From Planktothricoides sp. SR001 (GTDB lineage Bacteria; Cyanobacteriota; Cyanobacteriia; Cyanobacteriales; Laspinemataceae), in the NCBI RefSeq assembly GCF_001276715.1, contig NZ_LIUQ01000010.1:1-64000 (forward strand): a DNA stretch of 64,000 nucleotides, given 5' to 3'. Position 1 is the first letter of the stretch, and each line of letters opens with the position of its first letter. The notes beneath the pieces were generated by a model. The model worked only from the letters and a program-made list of their open reading frames with translations. It was not told where the DNA came from and searched no databases. This document shows, in pieces, positions 3,312-64,000 of this stretch. The translations under genes and the position numbers were made by a program.

Positions 3312-6300
3312 TCAATTCTTCACCAAAAATGTTAAAACCGTTTCATCAATCCCTTTGAGTTTTAAGGGCTGATACTTGATAATTTCATCATCATTCAAAT
3401 AGTCCGCGACAGCGGCAGAAACTAAAATTCGATTCGGTTCAGAGGCTTCTTGGAGTCGGGCGGCAATATTCACACTCGGCCCGATCGCCGTATAGTCAGA
3501 CCGTTCCGCATTACCAAACATTCCCACCACCGCCGTTCCTTGATGAATGCCACAGCGAAACTTGACCTCTGGGAGTCCTTGGGCTTGCCATTTTTTATTA
3601 AGTTGAATCAGCGATCGCTGCATTTTTCTAGCAGCGGCTAAAGCATTGGTCACTTGTTCATTGGGGGTGCATTCTTCTGGTGCGCCAAAAATCGCAATAA
3701 TCGCATCCCCCACGAATTTATCCACAGTTCCCGAATGCTCAAAAACTGCCTGAGTCATGGCATCTAAATATTCATTTAATATTTCCGCCACTCGGCGCGA
3801 TCGCAAATTATTCGACATTTGAGTAAAGCCGACAATATCACTAAACAAAATCGTAATTAACCGAGGTTCTGGCGTTAAATCTAACTGCAATTCTCCCCTC
3901 GCGGCTTTTTGTACCATCCCTGGAGGTAAAAACCGTTTTAACACCGACTCAGTTAAATAACTATTCAACTCTTTTACTCGTCGTTCATTTTCTTTCAACG
4001 CCAAAAGATTCCGCACCAATGCCAACAATTCTCGGTCATTAAATGGCTTGCCCAAATAAGCATCTGCCCCTTGTTCTACCCCTTCGACCCGAGTATCTTC
4101 ATTCACTTTAGCCGTTAATAAAATCACCGGAATTCCCTTTAAATTTTCGGAATCGCGCACCATTCTAATCAGATCCAATCCCGATACTAAAGGCATCATT
4201 AAATCCGCCACAATTAAATCTGGTTGATATTTTTGCGCCATTTGAAATCCTTCGGCGCCATTGCGAGCTAAAATAGTGAGATACTGTTGTTCTTTGAGAA
4301 TTCCTGCCACATAATGCCGCAAGTCTGAATTATCATCCACCATTAAAATCAAAGGATGAGGTTTTACCAGTGAATCAGTCAAGAGTTTGGTTTCCCCATT
4401 CCTCAGATTTGCGGATGCGTTATTAGCGGCTTCGGCGCTAATAATTTCTGCGGCTAATCTTCTTAAATCTTCTTCGGAATTGTCGATTTCTGTTTCCACT
4501 TCTAAATCTGCTAATTCCACATCCACTCGACTGGGCATCACTCCCGTAGGCACTTCAATAATTTGCTCTGGGGGCAAATGAGAGCAACCAATAGGCAGCC
4601 AAACCGTAAAGGTACTGCCTTTTTCATACACGGATTCAACGGTAATTTGACCTCCATGAAGTTGGACTAATTCTTTGGCTAATGCTAATCCTAATCCACT
4701 GCCTTCATAAGACCGACTGACCGAACCTTCTGCTTGGCGAAAGCGTTCAAATAAATGGGGGATTTGGTCATTTCTAATCCCAATCCCCGTATCTTTAATC
4801 CGTAACATACAATAATTGCCACTTTGTTCCACGGAAACGGTAATGCTACCCGGTGGAGTGGTAAATTTCATGGCATTGGAGAGCAAGTTATACAAAACTT
4901 TATCAAACTTTTCTAAGTCCAAATAAAGGGGTGGACAATAACTAATTCTAGTTTCTAAATAAAGTCCTTTTCGCTCACAGTAATGGCGAAAAGTATCCAC
5001 AGTTTGTTCAACAAATTCAATGAAATTACAGGGGCGAAACGTCGGCTGCATCCGACCGGCATCGAGGCGCTGTAAGTTGAGCAGTTGATTGACTAATCGC
5101 AGTAAGCGGCGACAATTTCTCAGGGCAATTTCTGCCTGTTCTAAGGGTAAATCTTTCTGATGTTGAACGGCGGACTCTAATGGCCCAATGGTGAGGGTTA
5201 AGGGGGTTCTAAATTCATGGGAAATATTCTGAAAAAATTCGGTTTTGAGGCGATCAAGTTCCAGAAGTCTTTCCGCTTGTTGTCGGGTGGTTTGATAAAG
5301 CCGAGACTGCTGCACCGCGATCGCGGCTTGGGCGGCCACTGCTTGAGCCAAATCAATCTCGGAAGGCAGCCAGCGACGAGGGGTGTGATGATGGCGCAGG
5401 GAAATGCTGCCGATAATTTTGCCATCAGAAAGCAATGGCACCACCAACAGAGCTCTAGACGGGGAGAGAAATTGCTCTTGGGTGTGATCCATGCCTACAG
5501 GAATATCCAGCATTTCCAGTTCGGGCATATCCTGTAGATCCTTAATCACCACAGGTTCTTGGGTGGCGAGGAGTTGCTGATGCACCGGATTTCCCGATAT
5601 CGGCACTACAGACCGGGGCAGCGATCGCCCGATCGCCGTTGAATCCATACGAGGGATTTCTCCCTGGTCGAGAATGGCATTCGGGGGATGATCCCCTTCT
5701 CCTCGGACCACCGAAGAACCGCCTTTTTCGTACAAGCCCACACATTGGACATACTCATCATTTTCCGTCCAAAGAGACAAGGCACAACCATCCACCTGCA
5801 ACGCTTCTCCCAGTTGCTGGGTAATCGCCGCAAAAATATCTTTCGGGTTGAGACTAGAGCGAATGGATGTGGTAATCGTGTTAATCAGAGCTTCGCGTTT
5901 AGCTAAAGCTTGGACTTGTTCATAAGCTCGCACTTGGGACAACGAGAGAGAAGCTTGATCCGCGACCATAAACCCCAGTTGCACTTCATCATCTTTCCAG
6001 ACCCGAGGCTGACCGCATTGATGCAAGGCTAAAACCGCCAGCAGATCCAGGCGGAACATTAAAGGCACAATCAAACTAGAACGAATATTGGCAGCGGCGT
6101 AGGTTTGTCGCCGTTGAGCGATTTCTGGGGTGTTTTCTTGAAAGCGCTCGTCGGTTTCTACGTCATTAATCACCAGTATATCCGTGGTTTCCCATAAAGT
6201 TTGAGCCAGCAGACTGTCGGAAATTTCCCAGTGGGAGGACTGAGGTGACTGAGGTGACTGAGGTGAAATAGGTTCAGTTTCTCTGGCTTTTTCCTCTTTC

Positions 6301-6935
6301 CTCTTCCCTCTCACCTCTATGGGTCTATCTTTTTTGTTTTGATAGAGAAACCATTCATCCGCCAACCGTCCATCGTGCAATGGCCGCAAAATGCAGTAAC
6401 TCACGTCAAAAATTTGACCCACGGTTTCCACAATGGTCTGAAGGATTTCCGCTTCACTGGTGCGGGATCGAATGGTGTTAATCACCGCATTCAACAGGGA
6501 CTCTTGGCGCAACGTGCGGCAGAGTTCGGTAGTGCGAGCTTTCAGCACATTGTGAGTATCCACCGCTTGGCTGACCAAGGTTCGCAGTTCGTCGGTTTTC
6601 CAAGGTTTGGTGACATATTTAAACACCTTGCCAGAGTTAATCGCATCCACCAAATCTTCTACGTCCGTATAAGCAGTCAAAATAATCCGAATAATATCCG
6701 GGTACTGGGTCGCTGTCACGCTGAGGAGTTCGGTTCCACTCATTAACGGCATCCGCTGATCGGAGACAATGACGGCAATCTCCTGATCTTGGGCTAAAAT
6801 CTCTAAAGCTTGCAGACCATTACTCGCTTGAAATACCTCATAATCTCGATATAACGTGCGATAAAGTAGCTCGAGATTTGAGGCTTCATCATCCACAAGC
6901 AAAATTTTCGGCTTATTTTTAGCTTTCGCACTCAT
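3312..6935 (-). CDS. cyaC: CyaC-like multidomain adenylate cyclase (REC-GAF-GAF-HK-REC-cyclase)
   Basis: A protein of 1207 residues that combines two-component signalling with cAMP synthesis in one cytoplasmic chain. The order is receiver 1 (10-125, phospho-acceptor D59 in IVSDQRMP), two GAF domains (about 165-345 and 365-560), a HisKA helix with H573 in ISHEFRTPLT, a HATPase domain (about 690-800, GSGLGLAL), receiver 2 (about 875-990, D911 in VADLMMP) and a class III cyclase (about 1025-1190). In the cyclase both metal aspartates are present (D1033 in FSDIVGFT, D1077 in KFVGDAI), and K1073 specifies adenine. The same architecture defines CyaC of Anabaena and Arthrospira. GAF1 contains a low-complexity insertion of about 35 residues made of repeat DNA (6238-6310). 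Confidence 0.88.
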   Translation of the reverse strand: MSAKAKNKPKILLVDDEASNLELLYRTLYRDYEVFQASNGLQALEILAQDQEIAVIVSDQRMPLMSGTELLSVTATQYPDIIRIILTAYTDVEDLVDAINSGKVFKYVTKPWKTDELRTLVSQAVDTHNVLKARTTELCRTLRQESLLNAVINTIRSRTSEAEILQTIVETVGQIFDVSYCILRPLHDGRLADEWFLYQNKKDRPIEVRGKRKEEKARETEPISPQSPQSPQSSHWEISDSLLAQTLWETTDILVINDVETDERFQENTPEIAQRRQTYAAANIRSSLIVPLMFRLDLLAVLALHQCGQPRVWKDDEVQLGFMVADQASLSLSQVRAYEQVQALAKREALINTITTSIRSSLNPKDIFAAITQQLGEALQVDGCALSLWTENDEYVQCVGLYEKGGSSVVRGEGDHPPNAILDQGEIPRMDSTAIGRSLPRSVVPISGNPVHQQLLATQEPVVIKDLQDMPELEMLDIPVGMDHTQEQFLSPSRALLVVPLLSDGKIIGSISLRHHHTPRRWLPSEIDLAQAVAAQAAIAVQQSRLYQTTRQQAERLLELDRLKTEFFQNISHEFRTPLTLTIGPLESAVQHQKDLPLEQAEIALRNCRRLLRLVNQLLNLQRLDAGRMQPTFRPCNFIEFVEQTVDTFRHYCERKGLYLETRISYCPPLYLDLEKFDKVLYNLLSNAMKFTTPPGSITVSVEQSGNYCMLRIKDTGIGIRNDQIPHLFERFRQAEGSVSRSYEGSGLGLALAKELVQLHGGQITVESVYEKGSTFTVWLPIGCSHLPPEQIIEVPTGVMPSRVDVELADLEVETEIDNSEEDLRRLAAEIISAEAANNASANLRNGETKLLTDSLVKPHPLILMVDDNSDLRHYVAGILKEQQYLTILARNGAEGFQMAQKYQPDLIVADLMMPLVSGLDLIRMVRDSENLKGIPVILLTAKVNEDTRVEGVEQGADAYLGKPFNDRELLALVRNLLALKENERRVKELNSYLTESVLKRFLPPGMVQKAARGELQLDLTPEPRLITILFSDIVGFTQMSNNLRSRRVAEILNEYLDAMTQAVFEHSGTVDKFVGDAIIAIFGAPEECTPNEQVTNALAAARKMQRSLIQLNKKWQAQGLPEVKFRCGIHQGTAVVGMFGNAERSDYTAIGPSVNIAARLQEASEPNRILVSAAVADYLNDDEIIKYQPLKLKGIDETVLTFLVKN

Positions 6936-58788: not shown

Positions 58789-59022
58789 ATGGCCAAGCAA
58801 TTTTCTGGACTTAATCAACTTGTTGCATCAAATTTAAAAAGGCTAAGAAAAAAATTGGGAATCTCCCAAGAAGATTTCGCGGAAAAATGTGGTTTGCATC
58901 GAACTTATATTGGTGCGATCGAAAGAAGTGAACGCAATATTACTTTACAGACTCTGGATAAAATTGCCGAAAGTTTAGGTGTTTCCCCACAGGATTTACT
59001 CAAAGATAACTCAGATGTTTAA
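58789..59022 (+). CDS. Controller (C) protein of the restriction-modification system
   Basis: A protein of 77 residues, an XRE-type helix-turn-helix regulator: LRKKLGISQEDFAEKCGLHR, then TYIGAIERSERNITLQTLDK. Proteins of this size and fold act as C proteins that delay restriction enzyme synthesis. Here the gene runs directly into the endonuclease gene with an 8-base overlap, the usual C-R arrangement. C-boxes are expected in 58751-58788, but no convincing symmetric pair was found by eye. Confidence 0.85.
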   Translation: MAKQFSGLNQLVASNLKRLRKKLGISQEDFAEKCGLHRTYIGAIERSERNITLQTLDKIAESLGVSPQDLLKDNSDV

Positions 59023-59908
59023 TAAATTTAGAAATTCACAATACTCTATTTACAAGAGAGCCAGAAAATACTTTATACAAAACTATAATCAACTGATCGA
59101 TATTGAGAAGTTTGTATCGATAAAATTTTATGAAATAGTTAACAATAATCTTCAACAGATAGTCAGTGATTTCAATGAGGCCAGCAATCTTTATCCGTTT
59201 TGGCAAAACTATCCACCGGACGACAGAGGTAGATCCCCCATAGGCGATCAGTATCCCTGGATAGAAGTTGGTGAACACACTATTGGATACAAATTACCAA
59301 GACTTTTAGAACCTTATTTTCGTATTCGAGATATTGGTTTACCTAGTGGTTCTGATCTGAGGCTAGTTCTTACGCATTCAGAAATTAATAAACTTACAAA
59401 TAGTTTTACAGATACTTGTTGGTTATTTCTGGATATTAAGTCGGTTGGACCTAGAGACGATCAAAACCATGCTGTAATGTCACCAAATCAGATTTCCGGC
59501 AGTGGTAGATGGGATTCTGCGGATAGTGGTGTTGTTAATGATGTGATAGTTGCAAAGGGTAAACGAAAAAGTCAAGCTTTTTATTGTAGCATTCCTCCAA
59601 TTTATATTCTCAGCGATGGAACGATGATCCCAGTTATCATACTGATCGTCAAACCTGTATACAGAATGTTATCCCTTGAAGAAAATTCAAAAGATGGAGG
59701 ACAACCACTGGGGAGAATTAGCTTGGCAACAGTTCCCAATGGACTCCTCTTGCAAGAAAATCCCAACTATTTACAGCAATATCCTAATTTGTTCTTCCCA
59801 GGGAAAGATGATCGAAGCACAAATTATCTAAAAAAGCGTTGTAGAATTAGTTTTGACGTTTTAAAATCTATAGACAATTGGAGATTTAAAGAAATTGTTT
59901 TACCCTAA
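59015..59908 (+). CDS. BglI-like type II restriction endonuclease
   Basis: A protein of 297 residues from ATG 59015; BglI has 299. The match to BglI runs over the whole length: NEASNLYPFWQNYPPDDRGR, YPWIEVGEHTIGYKLPRL, IRDIGLPSGSDLRLVLT, then FLDIKSVGPRDD. The catalytic residues align exactly with those of BglI after a two-residue shift: D114, D140 and K142 (BglI D116, D142, K144). The expected target is therefore GCCNNNNNGGC. It overlaps the C gene upstream by 8 bases and the methyltransferase gene tail-to-tail by 4 bases. Confidence 0.92.
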   Translation: MFNKFRNSQYSIYKRARKYFIQNYNQLIDIEKFVSIKFYEIVNNNLQQIVSDFNEASNLYPFWQNYPPDDRGRSPIGDQYPWIEVGEHTIGYKLPRLLEPYFRIRDIGLPSGSDLRLVLTHSEINKLTNSFTDTCWLFLDIKSVGPRDDQNHAVMSPNQISGSGRWDSADSGVVNDVIVAKGKRKSQAFYCSIPPIYILSDGTMIPVIILIVKPVYRMLSLEENSKDGGQPLGRISLATVPNGLLLQENPNYLQQYPNLFFPGKDDRSTNYLKKRCRISFDVLKSIDNWRFKEIVLP

Positions 59909-60855
59909 GCAAGATTTAGCTGTAGCTGCACAGGTTTTAGCGTTTTTATGCGATCTTCCGCTAACTTAACATACGCAGATTCTTTTTCTATGCCTATGTA
60001 TAAACGATTCGTTTTAATGGCAGCTACAGCAGTGGTGCCACTCCCCATAAATGGATCGATTACCAAATCACCTTCTGAACTGAACAAGCGAATTATGCGT
60101 GTGGCTAATTCCTCTGGAAATTTTGCTTCATGATCGTCATTGTTTCTAACACTATTGATGTGCCAAACTCCCCTTGACCCCCAATCTTTCCACTCTTGTT
60201 CAGAAAGCTTTCTTCTATCAATCACATACTCACCTGGTTTCCAATATATATATATATCTTCATACTCACTGACTGCCTTTAGTGTGTTGTTTGTCCACTG
60301 ACTATTTGCCCATGCGGGATCTTTTAACCAAACTCGTTTGTCATACAAATAAATTCCTACATCTTGAGCATACTTTTCCAGGTAATGACCTACTAGCTTC
60401 ACTCTCGTCTGAGTCTGGTGTTTGCCACCGCGAATATTGTTTCCGTTTAATCTTCTGTCAATGGTTTGTTCACTACAGCCTAGCAAGTTTGCTAACTGAT
60501 AACGATTATAATTAGGATATTTGTTGATAGCTTCTATTACCATATCTCTTGTTACTTGGCATTTTTGTCTAGAAATATTTAGGGCTTGTATTTTAGGCAT
60601 ATTTTCATCTTTAAAACATAAAATATCTGCAATATTTATCACCATAAAACCTCCTGGTTTTAAAATTAAATGATGGTTATATATGACTTTTTTTAGCATA
60701 ATTTGCCAAGATTCAAATGTTTCATTTTTTTCATATTTTTTGCCCACAAAGTATGGAGGAGACCATAAACTAAGAGCGACACTATCAGGCTCAATTTCAA
60801 GCATTTTCTGCTCCGATCTCCCGTAATAAATTGCATTGGGTGTTAGATATTGCAT
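59905..60855 (-). CDS. Modification methyltransferase of the BglI-like system (N4-cytosine type)
   Basis: A protein of 316 residues from ATG 60855, with six extra residues if ATG 60873 is used. It is a beta-class enzyme: catalytic motif IV SPPY at 32-35 (typical of N4-cytosine methyltransferases) near the N-terminus and the SAM motif DPFMGSGTTAVAAI near residue 270-283. Residues 101-140 hold a helix-turn-helix-like segment (VIEAINKYPNYNRYQLANLL, GCSEQTIDRRLNG) between the two motifs, possibly the target recognition domain. It is convergent with the endonuclease and must protect GCCNNNNNGGC sites. Confidence 0.9.
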   Translation of the reverse strand: MQYLTPNAIYYGRSEQKMLEIEPDSVALSLWSPPYFVGKKYEKNETFESWQIMLKKVIYNHHLILKPGGFMVINIADILCFKDENMPKIQALNISRQKCQVTRDMVIEAINKYPNYNRYQLANLLGCSEQTIDRRLNGNNIRGGKHQTQTRVKLVGHYLEKYAQDVGIYLYDKRVWLKDPAWANSQWTNNTLKAVSEYEDIYIYWKPGEYVIDRRKLSEQEWKDWGSRGVWHINSVRNNDDHEAKFPEELATRIIRLFSSEGDLVIDPFMGSGTTAVAAIKTNRLYIGIEKESAYVKLAEDRIKTLKPVQLQLNLA

Positions 60856-60873
60856 ATTTTTATGTCCCGTCAT

Positions 60874-61194: not shown

Positions 61195-61323
61195 TAAGTA
61201 GGTGAACATAATTAATTGCACTTTTCGTTCCCCACCGATAGACTGTGGATTCCCGCATTCGCGGGAATGACAGTTTTTCTTCTCATGGGGTCTACGGTGC
61301 ATTTATTTCTGCTCGTAAACTTA
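61195..61323 (+). mobile_element. MITE family A, copy 3
   Basis: A 129-bp copy starting TAAGTAGGTGAACATAATTA and ending CGTAAACTTA, with the GCGGGAAT hairpin in the middle. It lies 33 bases upstream of the accepted start of the phosphorothioation-associated methyltransferase fusion, and two in-frame ATGs (61267, 61285) lie inside it. The right end is more diverged than the left. Confidence 0.8.
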
Positions 61324-61356: not shown

Positions 61357-64000
61357 ATGGTTGCCCCAAATTCCTCACCCCTACCTCGTCCTCTGGGTTT
61401 AGCGGTTGCCGGGGGACTGTTGCCCCCAGAAACCCCAATTCTCGATTATGCTACTGCCGAATTACGTCATCCAGCAGATATCGTCTATTTTGGTTATCTG
61501 CTGAATTCCTTAAATTCTGCCGCAAAACGCCAAAAAGCTTTGGTCAATGCGTGGCAATTAACCCAGGATATTTTAATTGTTGCCGCTGAAGTCATGTTAA
61601 AAGAACGCGGGGAAAAATATCTGGCTTACGGTGGGGAAAAACCCCGCGAACTTAACCCAAATTATCATTACTATCAGCCCGTAGAACTGAAACATTATAT
61701 TGAACAAACCCTAGGGGTTGAAGCCACTCCTTTATCCCTAGGAGTTTATGCGGTATTTAGAAATAGCGATCGCCGAGAAATATTCTCCCAGTCTGTTTGG
61801 CGATCGCCTCTCACTCCTCCCAAAATAAAACCGGGAATTTCCGGCTTTAAAGACCATGCAGAAATACTCCAACCCTTAATTGATTTTTACTTAAACCGGG
61901 GACGATTACCCCTCAGCCAAGAATTGCCCACAGAACCAGCCTTAATTAATCAATTTGGCAGTATAACCGATGCTTTTGCCGCTATTTTAGCCGCCACCGA
62001 TGCCTCGGACTGGCAAAAAATTACCAGCCAACGCAGCCAAGACTTATTAATTTATCTGGCCAGCGACTTTCTCATCAAAGAAAAAGCCGATGAAAAAGCC
62101 GATAATCTGCCGATTAAACTGGTGGCAAAACTCACCAATTACCCCAGATTAATCGCTAATGATATTATTACATTTTTTCTCGACTTTGACAAGGCCATAG
62201 CGGAAATTAATCAACTGATTCACGATTTAAAAGAACCGCGATCGCTTATCAATGCTTGCCAAACCAGTGGATTAGGCAAAATAGGCAAAAAATTACCCAC
62301 TGCCTTATATATTCATACTACCGCCCTGCATCAACTTAACCCGATTTTGCGACTTTATGAAGCCCAATTGCGGCGGCAAATTGGCCAAATTGATGGGGCA
62401 ACTTTAATCAAATTTCACTTAGATGAACCGAAAATATCTTACTTATTTTATCCCGACTTTGACACCGACCCGCATCCGCCCTTAAAAGCCAGCTTGCAAG
62501 TAAATTTACCGGATTTTGCTCTAACTTATTTAGATTATCAAGCCATTGAAAACCCGCCCATTTTGCATCGCAAAGAAACCTTTGTCACTCCAGACTATCC
62601 CCTGTATCGAGTATTTGCCCAACTCACCAAACAAGAAGAAAGATTAGGATTACTTAGTAGTCCCAAAATTGGCACCCAAAAAGGTTGGCAGCGGTGCTTA
62701 CAAACTTATGGGGTGAAAATATCCGGTCATCAGGTAATACATTGCCCGGAAATAAAAGATACTTTACCCAGTATTATTCCCAAAATTGAACGGCATCGGG
62801 CGGCTATTGTGCGCCGTGACTTTTCTCGACCGATGCGATTAGCATTAGACGCGGGAATATTCACCCCAAAAACCACATTTTTTGATTATGGTTGTGGTTA
62901 TGGTGGGGATATTGAACGCATCCAAGCGCAAGGCTATTTTAGTCAGGGTTGGGATCCGTATTATCGCCCCGATAATGCTTTTATTTCAGCGGATGTAGTA
63001 AACTTAGGTTATGTAATTAATGTGATTGAAGACCCCGCAGAACGGAGAGAAGCTTTAATCAATGCGTGGCAGTTGACCCAAAAGGTTTTAATTGTTTCTT
63101 CTTTGGTGTTAATTGACGATCGCGAACGGGGTCAGGTGGTCTATGGAGATGGGGTGATTACTCGTCGGAATACTTTCCAAAAATATTATGAGCAAGAAGA
63201 GTTAAAATTTTATATTGAACAAGTGCTAAATGCGGAAGCAATTCCCGCAGCTTTGGGGATTTATTTTGTGTTTCGTGACCCAGAAATGGCGCAACGAATT
63301 CGCGCTTATCGGTTTCGCAGTCGCACCACTACTCCGCGAATTTCTGCCTATTTGCGAAAGTTTGCGGACTATCAAGAAATGTTGCAACCTTTGATGGCTT
63401 TTGTGAGCGATCGCGGTAGGTTGCCAGTCAAAGGAGAGTTGCCAGAAGAAGCAGAAATTCTGGGAGTTTTTGGCACCCTACGGCGGGCATTTCAAATCAT
63501 TATTCAAGCGACCAATTCAGCGGAATGGGATGCGATCGCGGAAAAACGCCGCAAAGATTTATTAACCTATTTAGCGGTAAGTAATTTTGGCAAAACCCAG
63601 AAATTTAATCAGTTTAATCCAGAAATTCAGGATGATATTAAATACTTCTTCGTATCTTATGCCAATGCTAAGGCGATCGCCGAACATATCATCTATAGTT
63701 TAAATGATATCAACCTAGTGCGTCAATGTTGCCAAAATAGTCAACTTGGCTATATTTCGGGCAATGGTTTTTATGTTCATATTAGTGCGATCGAGCAGTT
63801 AGAACCATTGCTGAGAATTTATGAAGGATTAGTCAGTCGGGTAATTGGTCGCATGGATGAAGCAACGGTGGTTAAATTTCATCTACATAGTTCCAAAATA
63901 TCCTACTTATTTTATCCAGACTTTGACGAAAATCCTCATCCTATTTTACACCGACGGATGAAAATTAATTTAAAAAATTTAGAAGTGACTCACTATGATT
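61357..64000 (+). CDS. DNA-phosphorothioation-associated methyltransferase, tandem fusion (3' end outside window)
   Basis: An open frame of at least 881 residues that runs off the window end. Residues about 10-475 are one family member (GLAVAGGLLPPETPILDYAT, NAWQLTQDILIVAAEVML, SYLFYPDFDTDPHPPLKASL, ENPPILHRKETF, IGTQKGWQRCLQTYGVKISG), but its SAM-binding segment is missing: ILDY is followed at once by ATAELRHPADIVYFGYLLN. Residues about 479 to the end are a second, complete copy beginning RHRAAIVRRDFSRPMRLALD, with the SAM motif FFDYGCGYGGD at about 508-518. The family accompanies dnd phosphorothioation clusters; no dnd gene is visible. The MITE directly upstream may have removed the first copy's N-terminus. 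Confidence 0.85.
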   Translation, partial: MVAPNSSPLPRPLGLAVAGGLLPPETPILDYATAELRHPADIVYFGYLLNSLNSAAKRQKALVNAWQLTQDILIVAAEVMLKERGEKYLAYGGEKPRELNPNYHYYQPVELKHYIEQTLGVEATPLSLGVYAVFRNSDRREIFSQSVWRSPLTPPKIKPGISGFKDHAEILQPLIDFYLNRGRLPLSQELPTEPALINQFGSITDAFAAILAATDASDWQKITSQRSQDLLIYLASDFLIKEKADEKADNLPIKLVAKLTNYPRLIANDIITFFLDFDKAIAEINQLIHDLKEPRSLINACQTSGLGKIGKKLPTALYIHTTALHQLNPILRLYEAQLRRQIGQIDGATLIKFHLDEPKISYLFYPDFDTDPHPPLKASLQVNLPDFALTYLDYQAIENPPILHRKETFVTPDYPLYRVFAQLTKQEERLGLLSSPKIGTQKGWQRCLQTYGVKISGHQVIHCPEIKDTLPSIIPKIERHRAAIVRRDFSRPMRLALDAGIFTPKTTFFDYGCGYGGDIERIQAQGYFSQGWDPYYRPDNAFISADVVNLGYVINVIEDPAERREALINAWQLTQKVLIVSSLVLIDDRERGQVVYGDGVITRRNTFQKYYEQEELKFYIEQVLNAEAIPAALGIYFVFRDPEMAQRIRAYRFRSRTTTPRISAYLRKFADYQEMLQPLMAFVSDRGRLPVKGELPEEAEILGVFGTLRRAFQIIIQATNSAEWDAIAEKRRKDLLTYLAVSNFGKTQKFNQFNPEIQDDIKYFFVSYANAKAIAEHIIYSLNDINLVRQCCQNSQLGYISGNGFYVHISAIEQLEPLLRIYEGLVSRVIGRMDEATVVKFHLHSSKISYLFYPDFDENPHPILHRRMKINLKNLEVTHYD

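Follow-up and report, generated by a model that had tools for sequence, protein, structure and literature searches.

A tandemly fused phosphorothioation-associated putative methyltransferase with a dead first copy in Planktothricoides and other cyanobacteria

Near the end of the 64,000-nt stretch of Planktothricoides sp. SR001 DNA analysed here (the window), one open frame carries two consecutive copies of a putative methyltransferase, the first of them without its SAM motif. Why should a gene be joined to a disabled copy of itself, and what has kept the pair together? The window comprises bases 1 to 64000 of a 150,765-base contig (C159) in a 7.07-Mb draft genome of 165 contigs, and the frame runs beyond its end. 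Translation from the ATG at 61357 to the stop at C159:64312-64314 on the + strand, the strand of all features of the gene given below, yields 985 aa, with 61357 to 64000 lying inside the window. An in-frame TTG at 61216 would lengthen the frame but was judged unlikely as a start; in the sister genome G001, what precedes MVAPN is read in a different frame, which indicates that ATG 61357 is the true one.

A profile scan of the fused protein returned TIGR04096 as its sole NCBIfam match, and returned it twice. This model, named DNA phosphorothioation-associated putative methyltransferase (dnd_rel_methyl), has 478 positions and spans a single copy. Residues 33 to 461 correspond to profile positions 63 to 476 and residues 476 to 952 to positions 1 to 478; scanned separately, the two regions score 371 and 665 bits, against a curated cut-off of 150 bits. 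The two copies are 37% identical over 478 columns (2e-107), far above chance, which bears out the first-pass annotation in its reading of one frame with two consecutive family members. It had also quoted the end of copy 1 and the start of copy 2 correctly, but the second does not follow the first directly, as a linker of about 30 residues lies between IGTQKGWQRC and RHRAAIVRR. No further TIGR04096 family copies were found in the window genome.

Two adjacent genes misjoined by an assembly or frame artefact could give the same picture, and the draft state of the genome (165 contigs) and a run of Ns just behind the gene would favour such an error at about 62780. The same junction, however, is present in independent assemblies, among them those of Laspinema isolates and the single-contig chromosome of G003, so that we rejected an artefact and regard its chance as negligible. 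The layout MT1-C1-MT2-C2, hereafter form D, is a real and conserved tandem fusion in which the first methyltransferase is dead.

The damage to the first copy is well delimited. MT1, comprising the degenerate methyltransferase region and a helical part, occupies residues 1 to 288 (61357 to 62220). Alignment of the copies places a net 25-aa deletion at 61447 to 61476, where copy 1 reads DYA..PAD in place of the stretch from motif I to motif II; it lies between DY-A (residues 31-32) and PAD (residues 39-41), and only 8 residues lie between Y31 and A40, compared with 33 between Y511 and A545 in copy 2. Copy 1 thereby lacks motif I (FFDYGCGYGGD) and motif II (GWDPYY) as well as profile positions 1 to 62. 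With this segment gone, normal SAM binding should indeed be impossible for the first copy, as had been proposed. MT2 (residues 476-690; 62782 to 63426) is an intact class I methyltransferase domain with motif I at 62878 to 62910 and motif II at 62947 to 62964. The loss is not confined to the SAM segment, as was first claimed. A second motif, YGDGxITxRNTFQKYY, is invariant in MT2 (YGDGVITRRNTFQKYY, 63142 to 63189), is lost in every MT1, and has become YGGEKPRELNPNYHYY in the first copy of the window gene. A comparison with 67 active copies, at the 68 positions conserved in 95% or more of them, shows several other changes in copy 1 as well.

To establish how far the fusion extends, copy 1 was used as a query against 149 related genomes, 130 of which contain the family. 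Its members take three forms: S (~480 to 540 aa), a methyltransferase with one C domain; M (~610 to 820 aa), with C1, methyltransferase and C2, a trimmed relative of D; and D itself (~900 to 1065 aa as open frames). Seventeen of 150 genomes, from 8 genera and 4 families, have form D (G000-G003, G005-G012, G017, G057, G111, G121, and G127; the G001 gene, counted here, is split across two contig ends), including Laspinema palackyanum, Oscillatoria princeps, Oscillatoria sp. PCC 10802, and Phormidium pseudopriestleyi. Form M is the commonest in cyanobacteria and is also found in Proteobacteria, and S forms are found in Actinobacteria too (Nonomuraea). The fusion had been thought to lack any parallel; this does not hold, as 16 other genomes share the architecture, the trimmed version of it is more frequent in the order than any other form, and the tandem enzyme PRMT7 is already known (PMC12153873). 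Automatic annotation hides all three architectures behind one name.

Is MT1, then, retained for something it does? Its sequence is evidently constrained. For G000 versus G001, omega is 0.33 (95% interval 0.19 to 0.60), and three pairs from the Laspinema group give 0.20 to 0.28; in these four pairs dN reaches or exceeds dS in no more than 0.0005 of bootstraps. The Oscillatoria pair, at 0.59 (0.34 to 1.06), is less clear. Overall, MT1 evolves faster (0.13 to 0.59) than MT2 (0.05 to 0.23). Judged by these substitution rates, MT1 is under relaxed but real purifying constraint, either on a function or merely on not disturbing the chain.

One explanation is that MT1 is a true regulatory pseudo-enzyme which lost catalysis early and was kept for binding the substrate, DndCDE, or the active MT2, in the manner of METTL14 or of the inactive half of PRMT7. 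Besides purifying selection, it can call on an open frame maintained in 8 genera, mostly with the same deletion point, and on a remnant whose fold is predicted with confidence even in the absence of helix A and strand 2 (pLDDT mostly 84 to 96). Yet MT1 is missing from the far commoner M form, it evolves faster than MT2, and additional parts of it have been lost in G002, G057, and G017; a dedicated regulatory role is therefore unlikely. The opposite explanation makes MT1 a passive relic, fused to a C1 that is needed and with no role of its own beyond folding harmlessly. Long MT1 branches, progressive shortening, disappearance from M forms, and the Oscillatoria omega with its interval up to 1.06 all agree with it, but in four of the five pairs omega is distinctly lower than 1 and no stops or frameshifts were seen in the 17 genomes, leaving us somewhat doubtful of it as well. 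The first-pass suggestion of a pseudo-enzyme or recognition module can be refined accordingly: it is C1 that every lineage keeps, while MT1 persists in a few genera and is absent from most.

The C domains offer a way to trace how the forms are related. C1 (residues 298-461; 62248 to 62739) is the part of copy 1 common to D and M forms. It is followed by the inter-copy linker (62740 to 62781), which has low confidence in the Laspinema model described below, while a helical region (63427 to 63711) separates MT2 from C2. C2 (residues 787-950) extends from 63715 to 64000 in the window and ends at contig position 64206. An unrooted tree of 115 C domains was reconstructed. All N-terminal C domains of D and M form one group (bootstrap/SH-aLRT 92/89), all C-terminal ones form another (95/85), and those of the single-copy proteins fall between the two. 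A separate clade for the C1 domains of D is compatible with the data (AU p 0.48). The single C1 group fits one duplication-fusion that would have yielded D, as read from these sequences, and M likely arose from D through loss of MT1, a loss that may well have been repeated. We infer the single-copy form to be the ancestral state, the tree itself having no root.

We then asked which ancestral residues each C domain retains. In 19 single-copy proteins, 56 C-domain positions are invariant, and a position was scored as kept when present in at least 90% of 111 sequences of each kind. By this measure 21 are kept in both domains, 18 in C1 only, 8 in C2 only, and 9 in neither, so that C2 too has lost part of the invariant set. 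The sharpest C1-only cases are K311, A316, Y318, N399, R405, E407, T408, F409, T424, and G439, and the sharpest C2-only cases are S810, R820, G831, L872, and L875. As mean retention is equal (0.84 for C1 versus 0.80 for C2, p 0.41), the loss is reciprocal rather than a one-sided decay. The methyltransferase halves are also unequal, copy 2 having both the SAM motif and the YGDG..NTFQKYY motif and copy 1 neither. Complementary loss between the halves suggests that the working unit is shared and that neither copy could be dropped whole.

These patterns suggest the following course of events. A single-copy gene (MT-C) would have been duplicated in tandem and fused in frame to give MT1-C1-MT2-C2. 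MT1 would then have lost the SAM pocket and the YGDG...NTFQKYY motif, both retained by MT2, while C1 retained one ancestral set (GKxLPxAxY, N399, R405-F409, T424, and G439) and C2 another (R820, G831, L872, and L875). The working unit would thus be split over the copies, the first contributing C1 and the second MT2, with C2 as a diverged partner. A useless MT1 would later have been removed in most lineages to leave C1-MT-C2, and where it stays it may serve as a non-catalytic scaffold. C1 and C2 may together form a covalent asymmetric dimer, whose counterpart in the single-copy forms would be a homodimer interface or an arrangement with two sites.

The tandem fusion is, in our view, probably a stage of permutation by duplication that has survived midway, its roles divided over the two copies. 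It is an in-frame tandem duplicate of a multi-domain gene, and relatives trimmed at one end exist. Trimming from the other end is expected too, and matches nine genomes with short M genes (611 to 637 aa), those read stopping within C2. A completed permutant (C-MT alone) was seen neither in the 149 relatives nor among the matches listed from 390 genomes of the class. The reverse order would make M (C1-MT-C2) ancestral, with single-copy forms having lost C1 and D having gained an extra methyltransferase ahead of an M gene. This order would account for M being the commonest form and for its presence in Proteobacteria next to dndBCDE. Against it, single-copy proteins hold both residue sets and lie outside the C1 and C2 groups, S forms extend to Actinobacteria (Nonomuraea), and MT1 domains lie outside the M methyltransferases; the last point is weak, as the first methyltransferases do form one group (SH-aLRT 86) but on long branches, which attract. 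Family f11 also bears on the order. Its G121 member is a D form, the only one whose copy 1 retains a motif I-like FFDYGGGQGGD, with the NTFQK motif gone, and its G022, G049, and G071 members are M forms in which a piece of the helical region survives ahead of C1, a remnant at odds with M being original. We consider the M-first order improbable. Under the duplication-first order that we favour, the family displays a graded natural series of single copy, full tandem, dead-first tandem, trimmed, and trimmed at both ends, which illustrates protein rearrangement by duplication and complementary loss in a family linked to DNA sulphur modification.

How firm is that link? Whether dnd genes follow the fused gene had been posed as a check. 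Extension past 64000 revealed none as far as contig position 90000, and in this genome dndB-like, dndC, and dndD genes lie on contig C47 and dndE on C112, none near the fused gene. Placement in a dnd cluster is usual for TIGR04096, though its model does not demand it. In cyanobacteria, dnd systems have no DndFGH and are frequently dispersed (PMC8569181). In Laspinema (locus L103), by contrast with the window genome, the D gene comes after dndC, dndD, dndE, and one further gene of unknown kind, all on its own strand, and a dndB-like gene is oriented divergently. This arrangement, together with dnd genes elsewhere in the window genome, upholds the proposed association with phosphorothioation. 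Of the 149 relatives, 121 have both the family and DndC, 9 have the family without DndC, 3 have DndC without the family, and 16 lack both (Fisher 1.3e-12, uncorrected for kinship). When both genes share a contig they lie within 15 kb of each other, by positions read by eye, in 16/18 S, 10/11 D, and 2/23 M cases. In Pseudoalteromonas an M gene immediately precedes dndB-dndC-dndD-dndE. Plasmid-borne M genes at four loci (L058, L063, L188, and L189) adjoin genes for DUF4007, PAPS reductase-like, large ATPase or cysteine desulfurase proteins; these may make up another cassette for sulphur modification, separate from dndBCDE. Near dndB/dndC, both the window genome (L040) and Laspinema (L103) also encode a second DndB-like protein with a DGQHR domain (~533 to 553 aa).

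What the protein does was approached through predicted structures. A predicted model of the Laspinema D protein has a pLDDT of 86.4 and a pTM of 0.52, and its domain placement is unreliable. In it MT2 resembles class I enzymes that methylate small molecules, RNA, and tellurite (7bgg: VIA Z 13.1, 147 residues aligned, rmsd 3.0), and MT1 is without the helix and strand that bear motifs I and II. C1 alone is modelled well (AlphaFold2 pLDDT 91.3, pTM 0.86), yet no solved structure gives a usable match (Foldseek best E 0.5, VIA Z at most 4.0), which does not show that the fold is new; a sequence search likewise found no solved relatives. A viral predicted structure, A0A516LL04_1, does match C1 (E 7e-7, TM 0.48). 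Neither half has an informative match in Pfam, PADLOC, or PHROG, and a PycC match in PADLOC (E 0.003) was rejected as chance-level. Because neither half matches models of amino-type DNA methyltransferases (Pfam N6_N4_Mtase with its D/N-PP-Y motif, and PADLOC), the label "DNA methyltransferase" is not established for this family.

MT2 may methylate a substrate of the phosphorothioation pathway that is held or positioned by the C domains. More specifically, though this is quite doubtful, the C domain could recognise phosphorothioate DNA or the Dnd complex and so recruit the methyltransferase to modified DNA, in which case C1 and C2 would split two binding roles and make the protein a bivalent writer coupling sulphur modification and methylation. 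The C domain, beyond the methyltransferase alone, is marked as a part of interest. It also occurs by itself in an uncultured jumbo phage (LR745208.1, 485 kb; locus L185), where a stand-alone C domain (4944-5516; tblastn 33%, 5e-16) is found two genes from a stand-alone methyltransferase (6111-6635) with a remote resemblance to MT2 (25% over 115 columns, hhalign P 4.9e-7). Having the same modules as separate genes, the phage possibly acts on the same pathway.

Several other features surround the fused gene. It is adjoined by a complete type II restriction-modification system (58789 to 60873), consisting of an HTH controller-like protein, a BglI/SfiI-type endonuclease (58979 to 59908; Pfam 493 bits), and a converging N6/N4 methyltransferase (59905 to 60873). 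Immediately past the gene lie about 230 Ns (C159:64336-64568, approximately 6336-6568 of locus L002), either an assembly gap or a withheld stretch. Just 3' of the gene, on the - strand, is a type II DNA methyltransferase (PADLOC PDLC03306; C159:64631-65932, L002 6631-7932), beside which no endonuclease was recognised. Farther on, at L002 12563-15724, a UvrD/PcrA-type helicase frame contains a lengthy insertion that bears intein/Hint-like motifs (VVGDVDQCQPPGSLVLTTNGYVPIENLDP ... DVEKHELYFTNGLLTHNSIYSF).

The nearest known relative is TIGR04096 itself. Both halves score far above its cut-off, copy 2 has the same motifs, and relatives share the dnd neighbourhood; the model describes one copy, whereas the window protein fuses two, the first short of the initial profile segment. 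No literature was found under this accession, and a single paper under the family name. Events of this kind are known, but the TIGR04096 case, its graded series, and the reciprocal loss in its C domains are undescribed in the literature searched. METTL3-METTL14 likewise pairs an active methyltransferase with a degenerate one, but as two separate chains of an unrelated family acting on RNA m6A. PRMT7, with two PRMT cores in tandem of which one cannot bind AdoMet (PMC12153873), is similar in design, having tandem methyltransferase cores in a single chain with one dead. It too belongs to an unrelated family, its second core is the dead one rather than the first, and the window protein has in addition a duplicated accessory domain with reciprocal loss. 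A likeness in process is the permutation by duplication reviewed for DNA methyltransferases (PMC3320104, citing Jeltsch 1999), in which tandem fusion is followed by trimming of redundant ends through working intermediates. Here the end product, C-MT, was not found in the genomes covered, and what is rearranged is a methyltransferase domain relative to a distinct C domain.
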